Source: a virus. Taken from it: a DNA stretch of 52,558 nucleotides. Location of the stretch: IMG/VR virus record IMGVR_UViG_3300020351_000002, positions 1 through 52,558 of that record; one strand, 5' to 3'. Both the position numbers and the translations under genes were made by a program. The notes below the pieces were generated by a model. The model was given only the letters and a program-made list of their open reading frames with translations, was not told where the DNA came from and did no database searches. Below, in pieces: positions 3,786 to 52,365 of this stretch (the first letter of the stretch is position 1; every line of letters begins with the position of its first letter).

Positions 3786-3807
3786 ACTCAACCTTTAAAG
3801 ATTGAAA
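3786..3807. repeat. Early palindrome, copy 8
   Basis: Left arm ACTCAACCTTT, right arm AAAGATTGAAA; seven bases upstream of the next ATG. Confidence 0.85.
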
Positions 3808-3814
3808 AGAAGAC

Positions 3815-4702: not shown

Positions 4703-5542
4703 ATGACACCAATAACAAACAAGGGCGTTCGCTCTGTAATTGTCTGGCTCGGTTTTGATCCAGACAGTGACGATTTAATAGACAGCCTCCGATACACCAA
4801 GAGCGGAAGGCTCAGGCGGCTGTTTGGCAAGAACTTCAAGTGTGAGATGGGGGAATTGCAGGCTGTACTGACTGCGGTATTACACCTGTCGCCATGGAAA
4901 GAGGCTGGCTTCAATACCTGCGCCTTTGCTGGGGCATGTGCCGAGGTCTGCATCAAGACGACCGGACAGTGCGTGACAAACACGGCGCTTCGCTCTCGCA
5001 TCTGTAAGACGCTCTACTTCTTTCTATTCCGAGAGGAGTTTCTCGATCAGTTGCGGATGGAGATTCGCCAGCACATTTACATGGCGAAGATCAAGGGCAT
5101 GCGAGCAGCTATCAGGCTGAACGCTACGAGCGACATTCTATGGGAGCGCACGGGGATCATCGATGAGTTCCCAGAGGTGCAGTTTTACGACTACACGAAG
5201 ATCCCTTTAGAGAAGCGCAACCCACCACCTAACTACCACCTGACGTTCAGCCTAAGCGAGGACCCGAAGTCTATGGGTAGGGCCTTGTCGTATCTGGAGG
5301 CGGGACACAACGCCGCGATGGTAGTGCAGACGCTTGACGGGATGAAGAGGGGCGACGCCAAGAGGGCATCCCAAAGTCTTGTGGAGGCTGGCTCATGGAA
5401 CGGATACCCAACCTTCTCTGGTGATAACAACGACATCAGGTTTTGGGATCCACCGGGAAGCTGGATTGTCCTGTACGCCAAGGGACCGGCGACAAAGGAC
5501 ACCTCTGGGTTTGTTCAACGCCTACCAATTATCAACCTTTAA
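4703..5542 (+). CDS. GP88-like phage protein with cysteine cluster
   Basis: 279 residues, ATG with AAGGAAGGGG upstream. A cysteine cluster (C73, C79, C83, C90, C101) sits after the motif HLSPWKEAGFNTC. This arrangement, followed by a helical FFLFREEFLDQL segment and an F-x-D-Y-T-K motif, resembles the 'gene product 88' family (PF17338-type) of phages, which has no established function. The cluster could hold a metal or iron-sulfur centre. The stop codon TAA comes from the centre of the next palindrome. The family call rests on motif memory. Confidence 0.6.
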   Translation: MTPITNKGVRSVIVWLGFDPDSDDLIDSLRYTKSGRLRRLFGKNFKCEMGELQAVLTAVLHLSPWKEAGFNTCAFAGACAEVCIKTTGQCVTNTALRSRICKTLYFFLFREEFLDQLRMEIRQHIYMAKIKGMRAAIRLNATSDILWERTGIIDEFPEVQFYDYTKIPLEKRNPPPNYHLTFSLSEDPKSMGRALSYLEAGHNAAMVVQTLDGMKRGDAKRASQSLVEAGSWNGYPTFSGDNNDIRFWDPPGSWIVLYAKGPATKDTSGFVQRLPIINL

Positions 5543-5551
5543 AGATTGAAA
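5530..5551. repeat. Early palindrome, copy 10
   Basis: Left arm TATCAACCTTT, right arm AAAGATTGAAA. Its central TTTAAA supplies the stop codon of the preceding gene, and AGAAGGAGG of the next gene follows. Confidence 0.85.
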
Positions 5552-5566
5552 CCAGAAGGAGGAAGC

Positions 5567-5740
5567 ATGAGTGAAGACGAATACATTTACATAAGCGTAA
5601 AGCTCTACCTCAAGGCAGGGCAAACGATGGAGTCTGTCCAAGAGATCGTGCAGGAAATGGACTACTCGTTTGCTCACAAGGAGTTGGTTGAGCATGAAAT
5701 CATAGAGATAACGGACACATCCATAGAGGGGGAAGTATGA
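5567..5740 (+). CDS. Very small conserved-looking phage protein
   Basis: 57 residues, ATG at 5567 with AGAAGGAGGAA ending five bases upstream. A beta strand (YIYISVKLYL) is followed by a helix and the ending HKELVEHEIIEI. The pattern 'VxLYLKxGxTxExVxEIVQEMDYSF' recalls short proteins seen across lytic podoviruses, function unknown. The stop overlaps the next ATG (ATGA). Confidence 0.75.
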   Translation: MSEDEYIYISVKLYLKAGQTMESVQEIVQEMDYSFAHKELVEHEIIEITDTSIEGEV

Positions 5741-42131: not shown

Positions 42132-42671
42132 ATGAGAATCTACAACATGCGGTGCACCCACGATCTCTGCGGAAGGGCCTTTGACTGGCACACGAAGTGG
42201 GGCTTGTATGAGGCCAGCAAAAGAGACAACTTCAAGGATGTCCGCTGTTGGCACTGCGGTCGCCTTGGAGCTACCAGAGCCTGGAATCACGCTGTTCCAG
42301 ACCTGACGGTAAAAGGAACCTGGGGGAAGAACGCCAGCCCTGAGCTTCGTGGAAAAGACTACTACGGGAAGGGCGAGTACCAGTCCCAGGTGGCCTTGTC
42401 TGGATCAAAGGTTGTTGACAGTGGTCAAGACCGTGGGGTGCGAACACCAGTAGACCAGACCAGAGAGTCGGTAAGAGACGCTGCTAGAGAAAAGATCACA
42501 AGCCTTCTTATCGAGCGCGGAGAGATGCGCCTGAAGGACATTGTCAAAGAAAGCGGACTTAAGGATCACATCGTTCACGACGTTATCTACAAAGACCCAG
42601 GCAGAATCCACAAGGTTGGAAGAGGAACCTACGGCCTTACTGGCGTCTCCTCCCAGACAAGCGCCTCTTGA
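42132..42671 (+). CDS. Zinc-finger plus winged-helix protein
   Basis: 179 residues, ATG with GGGAGATGAG upstream. N-terminal cysteines C8, C13, C39 and C42 make a likely zinc site. A basic, flexible linker follows. C-terminal residues about 113-172 fit a winged helix-turn-helix: EKITSLLIERGEMRLKDIVK, KESGLKDHIVHDVI, and a wing HKVGRGTYGLT. It is a candidate late regulator or DNA-packaging accessory. Its end overlaps the convergent terminase gene by 35 bp. Confidence 0.7.
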   Translation: MRIYNMRCTHDLCGRAFDWHTKWGLYEASKRDNFKDVRCWHCGRLGATRAWNHAVPDLTVKGTWGKNASPELRGKDYYGKGEYQSQVALSGSKVVDSGQDRGVRTPVDQTRESVRDAAREKITSLLIERGEMRLKDIVKESGLKDHIVHDVIYKDPGRIHKVGRGTYGLTGVSSQTSAS

Positions 42672-44574
42672 GCCTCGCTGCACTAGACTCGTAGTCGCTC
42701 CAGTCATCCTCACTCCACTGACGATGATCCATGGCCTTGCCCATGTCGATTTGGGTTGAGTTGATCCTGGTCATCCCGCCTGGGGTGTAATGAGAAACCG
42801 CAGTGGCAATCATTGCGGCAATACAAGCATCATCATTCTTGCCAGGGGGAGCCCCCATCTTGGCCTGAAGAGAGTCTATGCCGTCCTTGCTATAAAGAAC
42901 GGTCCTTGTGTAGGCCTCCATCTCATCAAGGACCTGCTTTGACCTAATCTTGACATAATCCTCCTTGAGGGCCCTCTGCATAAGGCCAACCATTGCCGGT
43001 TTCGTCTTCCTTGTCGTGTCCCAACCAAGCATCACCGTAGGACCACCAATGGCGTCTGTTGTTACGCGCCTATAAAGATTCCAGTATCGAGACCTTTCCA
43101 ACAAAGCAATGAGGCCAGCGCCCAACCCGGTAACCTCTGGTGCCAAAATAGCGTTGTTGTAATACATAGCCACTAGCAGGCAAATGGGTGCCAGCTCATC
43201 CAGCTCTATCTTTCCCCGCCACTCAGCAACCTGCTCCAGGGTGGCCAGGTCACAGACATAAATGTGGTCCCAGTCCCTACTCCCAGCGCCCTTACTAACA
43301 TCTGCGCCAACAACATACTTGTCTCCAGAAACAGGCTTTTTCCAAATAGACATTCTTCCCTGGCCCGGAGACACTTCAACAACCTCTGGCTTGTAAGTGG
43401 AATAAATGCGCTCTCTACCACTTGGGTAGTTGGATACATCTTCAATCTCGTACCAACCGTGTTCTGGAGCAACATTCCCATCCGGCTTAACCGCCCCGGC
43501 AAACGGCAGGCATAGCTCGCACCAACACCCATGCTTTGTCTTTTGCCTCTGCATGGCGTTCTTCTCGAAAACGGGAGACCCGGAGGCGCTAAAAGCCTCT
43601 TCATCCGTACTTGGATATTCCTGGTGAAACCTTTCTACAGAGCCACCACACTTTGTCGAAATGGTTGCCCTTCTCCAGGAAAGGTTCTCAAGGGTTATCC
43701 ACTCGCCAAACTTCTCAAGAAGAGTCCTCTCTTCCCCGTCTAAGGAAGCGACAAACTCATCCTCTGCAACAAGAAGAGGCTTTGAATAACCCTCAACCAA
43801 AAACCAAGGGGTGAAATATGCATACCAATCAGAATCAGCATCTCCTGGGTACTTATTCTTCAACTCCATCCATGGATAAGGCTCGTCCTGCCAAACCTTT
43901 GCGCTCAAATACATCGTATGGTGGAAGTCGCCAGACCCATTGCAAGTAGACTCTGAATAAGCAAATGTTCCTGGGCCATCAGGCATTGATTGCAGCGTTG
44001 CCAGGAAATACCGCTCTGGCTGCTTGTAGAAGGCGACCTCTGAGAAGTGCGCTAGCCGAGCGGTTGTTCCACGAGCGTCCTCTGCGCTCTTTGCTGTCAT
44101 CACCGTAAGCCTGCTTCTAAGCCCAGCCGGTCCAGCCGGGGCCCTGAAGTCTAGCTCAGCCCTGTTGTTGTACTTAGTTAGGGGCTGAAGGCGCTCTGGC
44201 AGATTGTCATAAAACAGTTTGGCCTTTGTAAAGATGCTGTGAACAGAATGGTCTGCATGTGCAGCTATGAGGGCTACCTCGTCTCTCTTCGTGATGCACC
44301 TATGGAACATCCAGCCCTGAATATGTGTGCTACAGCCAGCCTGTCTTGCCTTGGCCTCCCAAACTCTGATGGGGACGTTAGCTTCCTCCATCTCATCAAG
44401 CATCTTCTGTCGAAGTAGCTGGCTTGTATTCAGTTCAAACGGAAGAAGCTCGCCGCTCTTAGTCTGTATGAAGAGGTGCTCCCCGGCAAAGGAAGTAAAG
44501 TCATCGTAGGAGCCTGAAGTCAGATCAATCTCTGCGACCTCTGCAAATGTTTGCTGCTGTTGTCTTCTTGCCAT
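42637..44574 (-). CDS. Terminase large subunit
   Basis: 645 residues. ATPase: Walker A-type KARQAGCST (75-83), Walker B LAHFSE (174-179) with E179. Nuclease: D425 in VVGADVSKG, E480 in PEVTGLGAG, D581/D582 in KNDDACIAAM. The RQxGxST form of Walker A is normal in terminases. It packages DNA at the portal. Unusually the portal gene is on the other strand, so the two are not in one transcript. Start overlaps the upstream gene by 50 bp. Confidence 0.9.
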   Translation of the reverse strand: MARRQQQQTFAEVAEIDLTSGSYDDFTSFAGEHLFIQTKSGELLPFELNTSQLLRQKMLDEMEEANVPIRVWEAKARQAGCSTHIQGWMFHRCITKRDEVALIAAHADHSVHSIFTKAKLFYDNLPERLQPLTKYNNRAELDFRAPAGPAGLRSRLTVMTAKSAEDARGTTARLAHFSEVAFYKQPERYFLATLQSMPDGPGTFAYSESTCNGSGDFHHTMYLSAKVWQDEPYPWMELKNKYPGDADSDWYAYFTPWFLVEGYSKPLLVAEDEFVASLDGEERTLLEKFGEWITLENLSWRRATISTKCGGSVERFHQEYPSTDEEAFSASGSPVFEKNAMQRQKTKHGCWCELCLPFAGAVKPDGNVAPEHGWYEIEDVSNYPSGRERIYSTYKPEVVEVSPGQGRMSIWKKPVSGDKYVVGADVSKGAGSRDWDHIYVCDLATLEQVAEWRGKIELDELAPICLLVAMYYNNAILAPEVTGLGAGLIALLERSRYWNLYRRVTTDAIGGPTVMLGWDTTRKTKPAMVGLMQRALKEDYVKIRSKQVLDEMEAYTRTVLYSKDGIDSLQAKMGAPPGKNDDACIAAMIATAVSHYTPGGMTRINSTQIDMGKAMDHRQWSEDDWSDYESSAARLKRRLSGRRRQ

Positions 44575-47745: not shown

Positions 47746-48098
47746 GGCCCCTGGCCCTAGCCGCCCTACTCCTTGTCTTTGCTGAGCCTGTTCGCGCCGA
47801 ATGCGTAATACCGCCCGGTCCCCCGTGCCTTCCATTTGACGACCCTCGCTGGGAGGACCCGTCTTGCACGGTCTCTGTCGGCTCTTGCTGGTACGTCCTT
47901 ACCGAGACCGTTAACGAGCCTCTGATAACAAGGGCAACAGTGAGAATAACCCCTATTTGCGGCGATCCAGAGTCTGGCCCAGCCCTAAGAGAGGCTGCTT
48001 TTAAGGTCTTGTCTGGCCTAGACGCTTATGAGATCGAAGTTTCAATGACTACAGAGTATTGCTCTGATACCGGCTACGCTGACATAAAGATCGGCTAA
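47742..48098 (+). CDS. Small secreted cysteine-rich protein
   Basis: 118 residues from GTG 47742 overlapping the previous stop. A signal peptide is clear: MRPLALAALLLVFAEPVRA, likely cleaved before ECV. The mature part has six cysteines (disulfide-bonded if exported) and mostly beta segments (SCWYVLTETVNEPL). A periplasmic or surface role is indicated, for example in superinfection exclusion. Exact role unknown. Confidence 0.65.
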   Translation: MRPLALAALLLVFAEPVRAECVIPPGPPCLPFDDPRWEDPSCTVSVGSCWYVLTETVNEPLITRATVRITPICGDPESGPALREAAFKVLSGLDAYEIEVSMTTEYCSDTGYADIKIG

Positions 48099-48592
48099 CT
48101 AAGGGTTCTTCTCGCATACTCAGCAATAAGCACCGCATCTGCCAGCCCATCGTGCGGCGTCGTTCTTTTCCCAGGGGTTAAGTCCATATCGGGGAAGAGA
48201 CACCTTACAAGCTCAACGGCATCCACCTTGCCCTGATCCCTCTCTTTTGCAGACCGCTTTGGGAGAGATAGAGAGCGCTTCCACTGCTGAGGAGTTGGAA
48301 CTACATACCTAATCCCAAGGGCAACCAATAAGGCGTCTAACCTCCCCCAATTAACCCCACAAGTAAGTGTGGATGTTGCTGACTGCCCTGGCCTTGTAGA
48401 GGCCCTCTCTAGGGCCGCGCAGGCCCCAGGGCTTTTTACCTCTAGTAGCCATGAGAGTATGCAAGAGGTGTCTAGCGGACCTTTTGACCCGTTAGTCCTT
48501 GGCATAATCATTTGACCAATCACAGAGCCTGTGTGGTCAATCGCCACAAGTCCCCCAGAAAGTCCTGGGTCAATGCCTATGAACACGCTCAT
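48095..48592 (-). CDS. RuvC-like Holliday junction resolvase
   Basis: 165 residues from ATG 48592 (TGATG overlap; a TTG one codon upstream is possible). RNase H-fold nuclease with the RuvC motifs: IGIDPGLSGG with D8, ALERASTRPG with E62, and HDGLADAVLIAEY with D148 and D152. Length matches phage RuvC-type enzymes. It would cut recombination intermediates and branched DNA before packaging. It ends the replication operon and overlaps by four bases the convergent gene at 48098. Confidence 0.85.
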   Translation of the reverse strand: MSVFIGIDPGLSGGLVAIDHTGSVIGQMIMPRTNGSKGPLDTSCILSWLLEVKSPGACAALERASTRPGQSATSTLTCGVNWGRLDALLVALGIRYVVPTPQQWKRSLSLPKRSAKERDQGKVDAVELVRCLFPDMDLTPGKRTTPHDGLADAVLIAEYARRTLS

Positions 48593-48993
48593 CAAAACAC
48601 CTCCAACCTAAACGGATAGCCCATAACCCTTTCATGCTCTTTGAGGAAGTAGGTCGATGAGGACCTAAGCCTCTCCTCTTTAGAAAGAGATGTGTAAAGC
48701 CTTTCGAACAAGGGGGTGTTTAGGTCTTCTGTGGAAAGCCCCGCTTCTGAAGCCCTTTTCCCCCACTTTGAAAACAGGTCCATCCACCCCCTGTGTGCGG
48801 CACGAATGGAAAGCCATGCCGAAACAAGCTTCACCCCACCGCCTTTCCCTTTCCTGGCCTGAAGCCTGGCACTCGCGTAAAGCCTATCCGCCCACATAGA
48901 CCACTCTTCTTCGGACAGCGTGTATGCCTCAGACCTTCTTGGTGCCCCTCTTCTGTATGAAAGGATCGCGATAAGATCGTCCCTTGTGTCCAT
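48592..48993 (-). CDS. Unknown protein in the replication operon
   Basis: 133 residues, helical and basic in the second half (RLQARKGKGGGVKLV, KEERLRSSSTYFLKEHERVM). No motif. It overlaps both the helicase and resolvase genes by one base or a few. A helicase partner or primase-accessory role is possible by position. Confidence 0.65.
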   Translation of the reverse strand: MDTRDDLIAILSYRRGAPRRSEAYTLSEEEWSMWADRLYASARLQARKGKGGGVKLVSAWLSIRAAHRGWMDLFSKWGKRASEAGLSTEDLNTPLFERLYTSLSKEERLRSSSTYFLKEHERVMGYPFRLEVF

Positions 48994-50273
48994 TACCTAG
49001 CCCCTTCAAACCAGCCTCGCCCAGGCTCCCATTTACACATAGCTGTTCCCATGGGGCCATTTCTCTGGGCCCTGACAATCACCTCTGCGTCGGATGCAGG
49101 GTCGTGGTCTTCATTGTAAACAACGTGCCTATAGACAAAGACCACCGCATCGGCGTCTTGCTCAATCTGTCCTGAGTCTCTCAGGTCAGAGAGTATTGGC
49201 CGCTTGTTCTCCCTGAACTCGCAGCTTCTGTTTAGCTGAGCGACCACGAATATAGGTATATCAAGCTCCATGGAGAGCCTCTTAAAGGCGCTGGATGCTT
49301 CTGCCACTTGTCGCTCTCTGCTTGTAGACTGGGGCAGCTTGAGCAGCTGGAGGTAGTCAACGGCTGCAGCGCATATGCCGAGCCTCTTCTTTTGCACACG
49401 AATAGACATTAGTGCAGCGCCAAGACTCTTTGGCTTGTCATCGAAATAGGTCTGTACCCCCTCCCACTTGCTCAGGATGTCTCCAGAGACCCTGCTTACA
49501 TCCTCTGCCGTGTTTCCCAGTCGAGCATCTGAGGATGCTATTCGCTCTCCTATCTGCATCTCGTTCATTTCTGCAGAGACGAACAGGGTTGGCTTCTCCT
49601 GAAGCCTTGAGATGCTGCTGAGCAGGGAGATCATCAAATGGGTCTTCCCCATTTTCGGCCTACCACCCACAACAATCATCTGCCCAGGGCGTATCTGAAG
49701 GATTCTGTCCAGAGACGGCATTCCGGTTTGCACTAGCGTGTTGCTTCGCAGACCTAGTCTCTGTGCCTCAAGGTCTTCCAGGTAATCCTTGGTTATGTCA
49801 TGCGCTGTTCTCGGCTCAGAGCGGCCCTCAGGAGTCCATGTTGTGGCACTAGATATGGAAGACGACAGCTTGAGTATTTCCGAAAACGGAAGCCTGTCCT
49901 CCTCACAGGCGAGGATGTTTCTACAGCTATCAACAATGTACTGTCTCCTGGCCTCCTGGATAACAGAGGAGACATAGGTTTCTATGTTGTTCCTATTGGC
50001 GTTCGCCGCGTCTACGGTCTTGATGTAATACTCAAGATCTTCCCACAGGCTAAACGGCTTGGAGGAGCCAACATTTCCCTCCATTCGATCATAGATAGTG
50101 GCCCTGTCGGGGCCGATCCCAGCCTTCCTCTCTCTTACAAACAAAGCCCATGTGATTCTGTTGTGTGGGTCTGCAAAATGATCCTTCTTAAGTCCCAGGC
50201 TTTCCGCCTCATCAACGCAAACAGGGTGCCTAAGACAGACCGAAAGAATCGCCCTCTCTGACTCACGAATCAT
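48993..50273 (-). CDS. DnaB-like replicative helicase
   Basis: 426 residues from ATG 50273; a GTG directly before it is possible and a longer frame would lie in the methyltransferase gene. An N-terminal DnaB-type domain (about 1-130) is followed by the RecA-like core: Walker A GGRPKMGKTH (203-212), VDYLQLL with D306, and VVAQLNRS near 343-350, the latter typical of DnaB. It overlaps the methyltransferase gene by 11 bp. No primase or polymerase gene was recognised nearby. Confidence 0.85.
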   Translation of the reverse strand: MIRESERAILSVCLRHPVCVDEAESLGLKKDHFADPHNRITWALFVRERKAGIGPDRATIYDRMEGNVGSSKPFSLWEDLEYYIKTVDAANANRNNIETYVSSVIQEARRQYIVDSCRNILACEEDRLPFSEILKLSSSISSATTWTPEGRSEPRTAHDITKDYLEDLEAQRLGLRSNTLVQTGMPSLDRILQIRPGQMIVVGGRPKMGKTHLMISLLSSISRLQEKPTLFVSAEMNEMQIGERIASSDARLGNTAEDVSRVSGDILSKWEGVQTYFDDKPKSLGAALMSIRVQKKRLGICAAAVDYLQLLKLPQSTSRERQVAEASSAFKRLSMELDIPIFVVAQLNRSCEFRENKRPILSDLRDSGQIEQDADAVVFVYRHVVYNEDHDPASDAEVIVRAQRNGPMGTAMCKWEPGRGWFEGAR

Positions 50274-50793
50274 CACTGCCCCCCCTTTGAACAAGAGAGA
50301 CGGACGGCGAACCGTTGTGCCAGGGGTAAAAGGTGACAATCGCCGCCCCCTTTGGACAGGGGCCTGTGTGACCGTCGTCACGAATAAAGTGCAGCCTTCC
50401 CGTGATCAACTGAACCGAACCAGCCTTCCACACCCAGTCTCGCCACCACCTCGTATCCGTAGACGCAGGAAGTAAGCAACAAACAACAAGACGGTGCTTC
50501 CTAGACTGCTCGTAAGCCCTCCTAACAAACTTGCCCACATCCTTGCCCCAAGGCGGATTCATCCACACAGCCATGTTAGGCAGGTAACCGTCCATAAAAT
50601 CGGTCCACTCAACAGAAAGGGCGTCGTCATCCTCCCCTATCCACATATCAACCTTGGCGTTGCGCCCACTGGCACAAACATCAAGTTGAAATGCAAACCT
50701 CATGTCAAGATCGTCAAAAAGCCACTCAGGAGTAGACCACTCAACACTTCTACTGCTGAACAACTGCTGCTTGTTCCAAGGAGACGGGCTCAT
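50263..50793 (-). CDS. Phage DNA N6-adenine methyltransferase (Dam-type)
   Basis: 176 residues, ATG 50793 overlapping the preceding stop. Contains EWSTPEWLFDDLD, then QLDVCAS and WMNPPWGKDV with the NPPW catalytic motif (79-82). This order is that of the phage-type DNA adenine methyltransferase family (PF05869). It probably methylates adenine in phage DNA, either for protection or for regulation. It lies next to the helicase gene. Confidence 0.85.
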   Translation of the reverse strand: MSPSPWNKQQLFSSRSVEWSTPEWLFDDLDMRFAFQLDVCASGRNAKVDMWIGEDDDALSVEWTDFMDGYLPNMAVWMNPPWGKDVGKFVRRAYEQSRKHRLVVCCLLPASTDTRWWRDWVWKAGSVQLITGRLHFIRDDGHTGPCPKGAAIVTFYPWHNGSPSVSLVQRGGSDDS

Positions 50794-51230
50794 GGTGCCT
50801 CCCCGCGAACCTTGATCACCTCTTCAGCGGAAGAAGGAGGCATCACACCGAAATACTGGCAAAAGGAAGATATAGAGTCCTTCGTTAAACCACCCCGCCT
50901 CGCACACCACCTGTCCAACAGGTAGTCAGGACTCTTGTTGTTCTTACGCAACCACCGAGCAGCCTCCAAAAGAACTACCTGACCACCACCGCTATCAAAG
51001 CTCTCCTGAGAACGAGACCACCAGTTCCTCAGAAAAGCACGAATGTCCTTCTTCGACCTAGAGGGACGCTCCGCCTCCCACAACAAAGCCTTGCGAGCCT
51101 CGTTAACCAGATTCACATCAGGAAAAGCAAGCACCGCCTTGCTACACCAACCCATCAAACTATCGGTCTTCCCAAGACGACCAGGAAAGGCCTCTATTAA
51201 AAAATCATGCAGCTCCGTATCCCTGAACAC
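50790..51230 (-). CDS. Possible helicase loader or replication accessory
   Basis: 146 residues from GTG 51230 (GGAGG lies five bases upstream; GTG 51242 would add four residues but lacks a good site). Residues about 40-75, with ARKALLWEAERPSRSKKDIR followed by FLRNWWSRSQE, resemble the C-terminal helix of phage replisome-organiser or DnaC-like loaders. It lies two genes upstream of the DnaB-like gene. Motif-level similarity only. Confidence 0.45.
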   Translation of the reverse strand: MFRDTELHDFLIEAFPGRLGKTDSLMGWCSKAVLAFPDVNLVNEARKALLWEAERPSRSKKDIRAFLRNWWSRSQESFDSGGGQVVLLEAARWLRKNNKSPDYLLDRWCARRGGLTKDSISSFCQYFGVMPPSSAEEVIKVRGEAP

Positions 51231-51423
51231 AAACGCCTCCACACACCCAAAAGGGCAACAGAAATAACAACAGCGTCATTGACGCCCCTACAAACACCCG
51301 CCGTCAAGCCACCCAGCCCCAGCCTCCCCAGGGAGCTACCCTGAGGAGGACTGTTGAGGGGCGTTGGCTCTAGAGGAGAGCGAACTGAAAAAATCCTAAT
51401 CCAGTCCCGCCATCACAGTCAAG

Positions 51424-51723
51424 CTACAATTCGTCACTTTCTACAAACACAGGAGTACCCTCCCCAAGCCAGCTCCCAGAGATGTTGAAGTAAAACCAGT
51501 CCTGAGCGTCCTCAGCCCCACAACCCAACCACTCCATGATGGCCGCAACACAAAGGCCCGACTCGTACACCGCAACCTCAACCCCACCAACACGGTCCCA
51601 ATGGTCCGCAGGAGTCCGCGTCGTGCCCACCACGGCCTTATCGAAGTGCTCGCGGGGCTCCACAAGCAAAGCCTCGTCAGAAAGCCTCTCCGCCCACTCT
51701 GGGGACTCCAAAACATCTCCCAT
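51424..51723 (-). CDS. Small conserved phage protein
   Basis: 99 residues from ATG 51723 with a strong AGGAGG five bases upstream; a GTG two codons earlier falls in that site. Motif VAVYESGLCVAAIMEWLGCG followed by DWFYFNISGSWLGEGTPVF matches a small protein common in lytic phages; its function is unknown. It may be the first gene of the minus-strand replication operon. Confidence 0.75.
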   Translation of the reverse strand: MGDVLESPEWAERLSDEALLVEPREHFDKAVVGTTRTPADHWDRVGGVEVAVYESGLCVAAIMEWLGCGAEDAQDWFYFNISGSWLGEGTPVFVESDEL

Positions 51724-51743
51724 ATTCACCTCCTATAACCCGG

Positions 51744-51772
51744 TTGACAGATCTTAAATACACAGCTACCCT
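51744..51772 (+). promoter_or_regulatory. Possible plus-strand promoter facing the repeat array
   Basis: TTGACA at 51744-51749 with TACCCT at 51767-51772, 17 bp apart. The -35 is perfect; the -10 is weak. It would transcribe the 8-bp repeat array, and no plus-strand gene follows, so any product would be a non-coding or antisense RNA. Confidence 0.3.
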
Positions 51773-51832
51773 ATCCGTAGGTAAGCAGGAAGGGATTAAC
51801 TAAGTATACTTAGTACTCTAGGTACCTACTAG

Positions 51833-51859
51833 ACATAGAACATAGAAACAACGTTTCTA
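51833..51859. repeat. Array spacer 1 with inverted repeat
   Basis: First 27-bp spacer, containing CATAGAAC and the arms AGAAAC and GTTTCT around a three-base loop. Near-identical to the spacer at 51932-51958, with 99 bp between their starts. Confidence 0.8.
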
Positions 51860-51931
51860 CTAACTAGGTACTTAGTTACCTAGTTATCTAGATACTTAGT
51901 TACCTAGGTACCTAGTTACCTAGTTACTTAG

Positions 51932-51958
51932 GCATAGAACAAAGAAACAAAGTTTCTT
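51932..51958. repeat. Array spacer 2 with inverted repeat
   Basis: Second 27-bp spacer, differing from spacer 1 at four positions. CATAGAAC and the arms AGAAAC and GTTTCT are kept. Confidence 0.8.
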
Positions 51959-51986
51959 CTACTTAGCCTACTAGCCTACTAGCCTA

Positions 51987-52187
51987 CTAGGCCTCAGCTG
52001 TACCCTCTTCTCCAACCAGGCAGACATAGTCCAGGGCTTCTGCCTCTACCACCCCGTCCAGGACACCCTCCGGGTCCCGCCTAACCGCGTCTATGAGCCT
52101 ATTAAAAGCATCCTCGGCGTCATTCCCAAACATAACCGCCGTCAAAATAAACCTATATCCCTTGATGCCCTTTTCTGAACCCCTCAT
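51987..52187 (-). CDS. Small protein, unknown
   Basis: 66 residues from ATG 52187, with GGAGG nine bases upstream; ATG 52193 would place the site too close. Likely helical, acidic (AEDAFNRLIDAVRRDPEGVL), no motif. It overlaps the upstream gene by 35 bp and its stop TAG is in the last octamer of the repeat array. Confidence 0.6.
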   Translation of the reverse strand: MRGSEKGIKGYRFILTAVMFGNDAEDAFNRLIDAVRRDPEGVLDGVVEAEALDYVCLVGEEGTAEA

Positions 52188-52365
52188 CTGCATAAGCCTC
52201 CACCAGGAAATCCCTTTCCCTTCGGAGTCTACAGATTTCAGCGTCACGCTCATCAAGAAGGTCAAACAGCGCGGGGATAAGGCCTAGTGCTTCCAGGGGA
52301 GCCTTGCCCTCCCAGCGCCTCATCAGTTCATCTCTAAACGACCTGAGTCCAAGCTTCAAAGACAT
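52153..52365 (-). CDS. Small helical protein, unknown
   Basis: 70 residues from ATG 52365 with GGAGG six bases upstream. Two helices including DERDAEICRLRRERDFLVEA. It is the most upstream minus-strand gene and leads an operon with the gene at 52187. Nothing identifies it. Confidence 0.65.
   Translation of the reverse strand: MSLKLGLRSFRDELMRRWEGKAPLEALGLIPALFDLLDERDAEICRLRRERDFLVEAYADEGFRKGHQGI

Follow-up and report, generated by a model that had tools for sequence, protein, structure and literature searches.

A conserved intergenic array of TAG octamers and hairpin spacers as a candidate replication origin core in an uncultivated phage group

Introduction

The replication origin of phage lambda consists of O iterons beside an A+T-rich opening region and is subject to transcriptional activation (PMC5043065, PMC3985674). 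Short repeats are also known from other systems, such as the parS sites of pSM19035, in which 7 to 10 contiguous copies of a 7-bp unit lie near promoters (PMC9499535), and the DnaA-trios, which are repeated TAG trinucleotides in the unwinding region of bacterial oriC (PMC8287927). Here we describe an array of octamers ending in TAG in a virus genome, the IMG/VR virus record of 52,558 bases that was analysed as a whole and is called the window below.

The array resembles the lambda origin in several respects: its repeats are tandem and stand beside orf150 and a DnaB gene, as those of lambda stand by its helicase-loading genes; the array itself is easily melted DNA, comparable to the A+T-rich region of lambda; and a promoter-like site, P+, is placed relative to the preceding gene as is the antisense promoter pO/oop (PMC5043065, PMC3985674). 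However, the iterons of lambda are inverted repeats of 19 bp that lie within the O gene, whereas the units here are of 8 bp and intergenic, hairpin spacers interrupt the array, and no O homologue was found among the scanned window proteins. The mechanism considered below is lambda-like, but the defining geometry of lambda is lacking, and the array is therefore not counted as a lambda-type member. Unlike the repeats of iteron plasmid origins, for which a phasing rule is described (PMC5043065), the 8-bp units are out of helix phase. With nine contiguous units, the array exceeds the minimum of at least four contiguous 7-8 bp units given for sites of the parS kind (PMC9499535), but the unit of pSM19035 is WATCACW and no hairpin spacers are described there. 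In DnaA-trios the trinucleotide recurs every 3 nt beside DnaA boxes, whereas TAG recurs here every 7-8 nt. The operators of the Trp repressor have a CTAG-N4-CTAG geometry, which is also found in the array. Our literature search on CTAG/iteron and CTAG/Trp-operator phage origins returned nothing relevant and, as far as we found, the layout of the array is not described for any known phage origin in the literature searched.

Genome context of the array

Three contigs, L041, L042 and L043, bridge the end of the window (52558) and its start (1) via 244 bases absent from the window, indicating that the genome is circular or permuted, with a size of about 52.8 kb. Matches to a P22/SU10-type portal and to the SU10 adaptor among the window proteins suggest a podovirus-like phage, and DNA comparison with isolated phages revealed no related isolate. 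Similar direct repeats of 26-47 bp were observed near gene starts in the early region (2821-2863, 3787-3812 and 5532-5576).

In the window and its relatives, orf88 and orf92 are followed by the array, two promoter-like sites, the leader, orf150, an optional Dam gene, DnaB, orf133 and RuvC (Table 1). The array had been predicted to sit upstream of the DnaB, methyltransferase and RuvC genes; this position is correct, with orf101, two promoter-like sites, a leader and orf150 intervening. Homologues of orf101 occur in unrelated contigs, and none was found in the diverged DnaB relatives. A dependence of the array on the Dam methyltransferase was considered and rejected, because many array-bearing relatives give no Dam match (L008, L010, L015, L016, L023, L026 and L027, all with an array).

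Table 1. Positions of the array, its parts and the surrounding genes in the window
Feature	Coordinates	Strand	Remarks
Terminase-like gene	42637-44574		about 7 kb from the array
RuvC-like Holliday junction resolvase	48095..48595	-	
orf133	48592..48993	-	conserved; replication operon
DnaB-like replicative helicase	48993..50381	-	
Dam-type N6-adenine methyltransferase	50263..50793	-	
orf150	50790..51242	-	candidate helicase loader/initiator; 150 aa
Structured leader	51312..51361	-	13-bp hairpin, invariant UAGCU loop; between P- and orf150
P-	51393..51422	-	TTGACTGTGATGGCG...; divergent promoter-like site of the replication operon
orf101	51424..51729	-	accessory gene between P+ and P-
P+	51744..51772	+	TTGACA-N17-TACCCT; sigma70-like; reads into the array
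CTAG/TAG octamer array with two hairpin spacers	51797..51990		candidate origin core/unwinding element
First repeat block	51806..51832		ATACTTAG TACTCTAG ... CCTACTAG; phase partly off
Spacer 1	51833..51859		27 bp; hairpin AGAAAC-AAC-GTTTCT at 51844-51858
Central block	51860..51931		nine octamers, exact 8-bp spacing; seven in L042 and L043
Spacer 2	51932..51958		27 bp; hairpin AGAAAC-AAA-GTTTCT at 51943-51957
Third block	51959..51990		CTACTTAG (CCTACTAG)x3; one copy fewer in L043
orf92	51987..52265	-	conserved; 92 aa; stop codon in the last octamer

Structure of the octamer array

The original prediction described octamers ending in TAG arranged in three blocks, and this was borne out by TRF and by shuffles. 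TRF found a period of 8 with 8.5 copies at 51864-51931 (score 87) and a second match, 3.9 copies of CTACTAGC, at 51959-51990; in the first block the phase is broken by a step of 11 bp (51814 to 51825). Nine TAG lie exactly 8 bp apart, compared with a longest run of six in 5000 local Markov shuffles, and the period-8 identity was 50/64, whereas 60 Markov shuffles of the whole window did not exceed 33/64. In the array, CTAG occurs 11 times per 175 bp, and in the same 60 shuffles at most six times; given the array's own base composition, however, 11 CTAG were also attained in 66 of 5000 local shuffles, so that the 8-bp spacing is the stronger signal. The predicted eleven CTAG in about 175 bp were confirmed, but the tetranucleotide is not otherwise rare, being only mildly depleted in the whole window (146 observed, 194 expected).

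The array has a GC content of 35%, and nearest-neighbour energies identified it as the least stable duplex of the window at both 70 bp and 120 bp; by the 70-bp measure, the array was the least stable DNA also in four of seven other contigs tested. It had been called non-coding, and it is indeed intergenic, but the TAG of its last octamer doubles as the stop codon of orf92, meaning that it abuts coding DNA. Separately, a second CTAG cluster (1079-1254, the stretch with the inverted repeat being noted at 1156-1256) just past the first early gene contains one long inverted repeat (CTAGGTGCTGTTCAGTGCTCTGT / ACAGGGTAGTGATTAGCACCTAG) and no 8-bp repeats.

Spacer hairpins

The two 27-bp spacers are identical at 23 of 27 positions and recur at an exact 99 bp from start to start, as predicted, and the predicted inverted repeat is present in both as AGAAAC-NNN-GTTTCT. 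In one sub-group of the relatives, the arrays carry an inverted repeat that is typically GTAGAAAC-GTT-GTTTCT, with variants, and the hairpin core is absent from the other sub-group (L019/L053, L023/L056, L026/L054, L027/L057 and L051). In an alignment of nine copies the 6-bp stem was paired in 100%, and two of the six pairs were altered on both sides, one from A-U to G-C and the other from A-U to G-C or C-G. The pairing, the number of doubly changed cells and the covariation score were each attained in none of 500 shuffles. The L007 genome has two hairpins with different stems, suggesting that the structure may be favoured over a fixed binding sequence. G-U pairs, which would indicate the RNA strand, were not found in the stem in any of the nine copies. 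One further hairpin match, in L072, stands without an array and looks like a chance match.

Promoter-like sites and leader hairpin

A site of the form TTGACN-N17-TANNNT pointing toward the array was found in 12 of 14 regions (window included), compared with 0.05 expected from shuffles. On the other strand, a divergent TTGACTGTGNNGGCG site, starting at 51422 in the window, leads into the replication operon. The leader between this site and orf150 contains a hairpin with compensatory change in 12 of its 13 pairs, and no shuffle attained any of the five measures applied to it; its sense strand is rich in G-U pairs, which points to an RNA structure. Searches with a covariance model located it at most once per genome at a strong score, ahead of the replication operon and in those relatives in which the divergent promoter is retained, and detected no copy in L046/G005 or L071. 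It is possibly a protein-binding or translational control site.

Conservation and variation among relatives

We found a CTAG/TAG array after orf92 and before orf150-DnaB-RuvC in about 14 diverged IMG/VR relatives. The site is CTAG/TAG-rich in relatives whose DnaB is 65-77% identical, the position being kept in those DnaB relatives whose contigs reach there, except L046. In each retrieved contig with an array, no other TAG/CTA cluster is as strong; the 8-bp spacing is seen in L007, L008 and L016 and is less regular in others. A tRNA-like sequence was noticed by eye between orf92 and the array in L010 (about 1455-1530) and L013.

Three genomes more than 99.7% identical to the window were compared over stretches of 1.7-3.6 kb. 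The array of L041 is identical to that of the window; L042 lacks 16 bp, corresponding to two octamers of the central block; and L043 lacks 24 bp, namely those 16 bp and one CCTACTAG. Every gap column, together with two to three of the five to six substitutions, falls inside the 194-bp array, and the gaps are whole octamers; the array therefore changes by whole units with the phase kept. Absence from close relatives and expansion with no conserved phase had been named beforehand as signs against a function; instead, the array was present in all three near-identical contigs, and changes in copy number leave the 8-bp phase intact.

Two diverged contigs depart from this arrangement. In L046/G005, the orf150-DnaB-RuvC genes (54-73% identity) are located behind early genes with no array upstream; the L046 contig is partial and ends before the place where L071 has its array. 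L071, which by its early genes (46-70% identity) belongs to the same phage group, has its array and hairpin flanked by genes of 227 aa and 142 aa. These two contigs show that the array and the replication genes can be separated. The 227-aa protein beside the displaced array (L071:8082-8765, minus strand) gave no Pfam match and has a C-terminal end that, by eye, appears sliding-clamp-like. The early intergenic DNA of the window, G001 and G009 contains smaller CTAG stretches with inverted repeats. At 16840-16930 of L088 (G009) and 8790-8860 of L079 (28790-28860 of G001), likewise in early intergenic DNA, short repeats of the CTAG/TAG kind adjoin hairpins that are unrelated.

The orf150 domain and phage initiators

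The orf150 protein had no family match of its own, and no relative was found in bacterial genomes or in isolated phages. Fold searches with the whole protein and with its C-terminal domain gave nothing significant, lambda P appearing only at E 3-5, and a profile search against solved structures gave no meaningful match. By an alignment scan, however, the first approximately 80 residues correspond to the C-terminal part of proteins of about 290 aa in L060, L063 and L065; L062 contains a stretch matching the domain, and in L066 a primase-DnaB-like protein comes after a protein with the orf150 domain. In its N-terminal part (residues 1-162), the L060 protein matches the PHROG "replication initiation protein" (E 3.9e-27), a type of domain that orf150 lacks.

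In L060 and L065, a 7-bp repeat, TACTAGT or TACCAGT, is present seven times in the DNA of the linker, a result attained in none of 300 shuffles. Since a unit of 7 bp is not a multiple of three, an origin as protein repeats is unlikely and the repeats look selected as DNA; in L060 they are adjoined by 11-bp GGTCAACCAAT repeats. Linker repeats in L062 and L063 were not above chance by the shuffle test. The repeats of the window and those of L060/L065 appear alike in setting and TAG content, both being short TAG-containing tandem repeats that adjoin an orf150 domain, although in these initiator genes (PHROG 16167-type) the unit is 7 bp and lies inside the gene, whereas in the window family it is 8 bp and intergenic. 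The repeats of L060 and L065 may themselves be an origin. The known phage initiator genes of JBD44, F10, Mx8 and IFTN1 contain other short repeats and no CTAG arrays.

Discussion

On sequence evidence, we give a probability of about 0.52 to the reading that the array is the core of the phage replication origin; its most likely role is to mark the place at which the viral DNA opens for copying to start. The original prediction had left the choice among an origin, a partition or packaging site and an operator array; an origin-like module is now favoured on account of the position by a loader-like gene and DnaB, the lowest duplex stability and the TAG repeats in distant initiator genes, while packaging and partition gained no support. 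An origin module explains the position, the melting, the phase-keeping variation, the promoter and the link to initiators in one account. Counter to it are the replication genes of L046/G005 without an upstream array and the L071 array with no P+ next to it. Also on this side are the smaller CTAG clusters with hairpins in other intergenic regions, the 7-8 bp units out of helix phase, the lack of a significant fold match for orf150 and the chance-level linker repeats of L062 and L063. As array and replication genes are separable in these two contigs, the origin is regarded as likely only. GC skew was rejected as independent evidence because it tracks gene strand, and the skew at fourfold sites does not locate an origin on its own.

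If the array is an origin, the TAG octamers, with their many TpA steps and as the most easily melted DNA of the genome, would form a combined initiator-binding and unwinding element; the spacer hairpins, folding in single-stranded DNA or RNA, may help to mark the helicase-loading site; the helicase-loader-like orf150 product would hand over DnaB; and transcription from P+ through the array may help to open it, as at the lambda origin. We infer the firing of replication from the array, its binding protein and the roles of hairpin and transcript.

The main rival, which we regard as doubtful, is an operator or roadblock array, in which a phage or host repressor on the octamers downstream of P+ and near P- would control early transcription of the replication operon, either as tandem 7-8 bp ribbon-helix-helix (RHH) repressor sites or as elongation-blocking stoperators. 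The array does begin just downstream of a conserved promoter-like site, with P- divergent, and one RHH protein is known whose contiguous 7-bp sites overlap promoters (pSM19035 parS, PMC9499535); moreover, the replication genes of L046 lie in an early operon, where the array, the leader hairpin and P+ are jointly missing. However, no RHH or TrpR-like protein was found in the Pfam-scanned subset of window proteins, although a host protein could bind, and neither the covariation of the hairpin nor the extreme instability of the duplex follows from an operator alone. The array and hairpin of L071, which have no P+ alongside, argue against an operator and also against an unlikely further explanation, in which the P+ transcript of array and hairpins, antisense to the end of orf92, would be a noncoding RNA, either regulatory, like lambda oop, or replication-priming. 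Such an RNA would be consistent with the conservation of P+ in most regions, with the hairpin covariation, with the folding of the array RNA, which on either strand was better than that of any of 200 shuffles (z -3.5 and -3.9), and with the RNA-dependent origins of mycobacterial prophages (PMC7157519), but the stem has no G-U pairs, no terminator-like site was found on the P+ strand, and an Rfam search gave no match for the array RNA, as was also the case for the leader hairpin.

The other two explanations are even less probable. Short repeats in tandem have a centromere-like form (PMC9499535), and the array might be bound by a segregation protein or by terminase; this is very improbable, as no partition gene was found among the scanned proteins (and no ParA in the Pfam-scanned subset), the terminase-like gene is remote, and the array tracks the replication genes. 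Least probable of all, by a little, is a neutral, slippage-prone microsatellite without function, which would account for the variation in unit number between near-identical genomes but not for an array kept at the same site where DnaB is only 65-77% identical, nor for the covarying hairpin and the conserved promoter-like site.

Returning to the origin reading, the distant relatives seem to pair repeats and loader in one gene, whereas the window family has them in separate pieces. A speculative extension, which we hold only tentatively and would not expect to be correct in full, is that the locus represents a new origin class, in which melted TAG repeats of 7-8 nt and covarying hairpins would constitute a strand-marking platform read by a stand-alone orf150, and which would have evolved by separation of loader domain and array from a classical initiator gene. 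The array is a candidate for the start of replication in a group of uncultivated phages whose orf150 family has no match in isolated phages. If the origin reading is true, the locus would be a test case for how short repeats out of helix phase, hairpins and transcription jointly open DNA, and it would allow origins to be predicted in phages from metagenomes.
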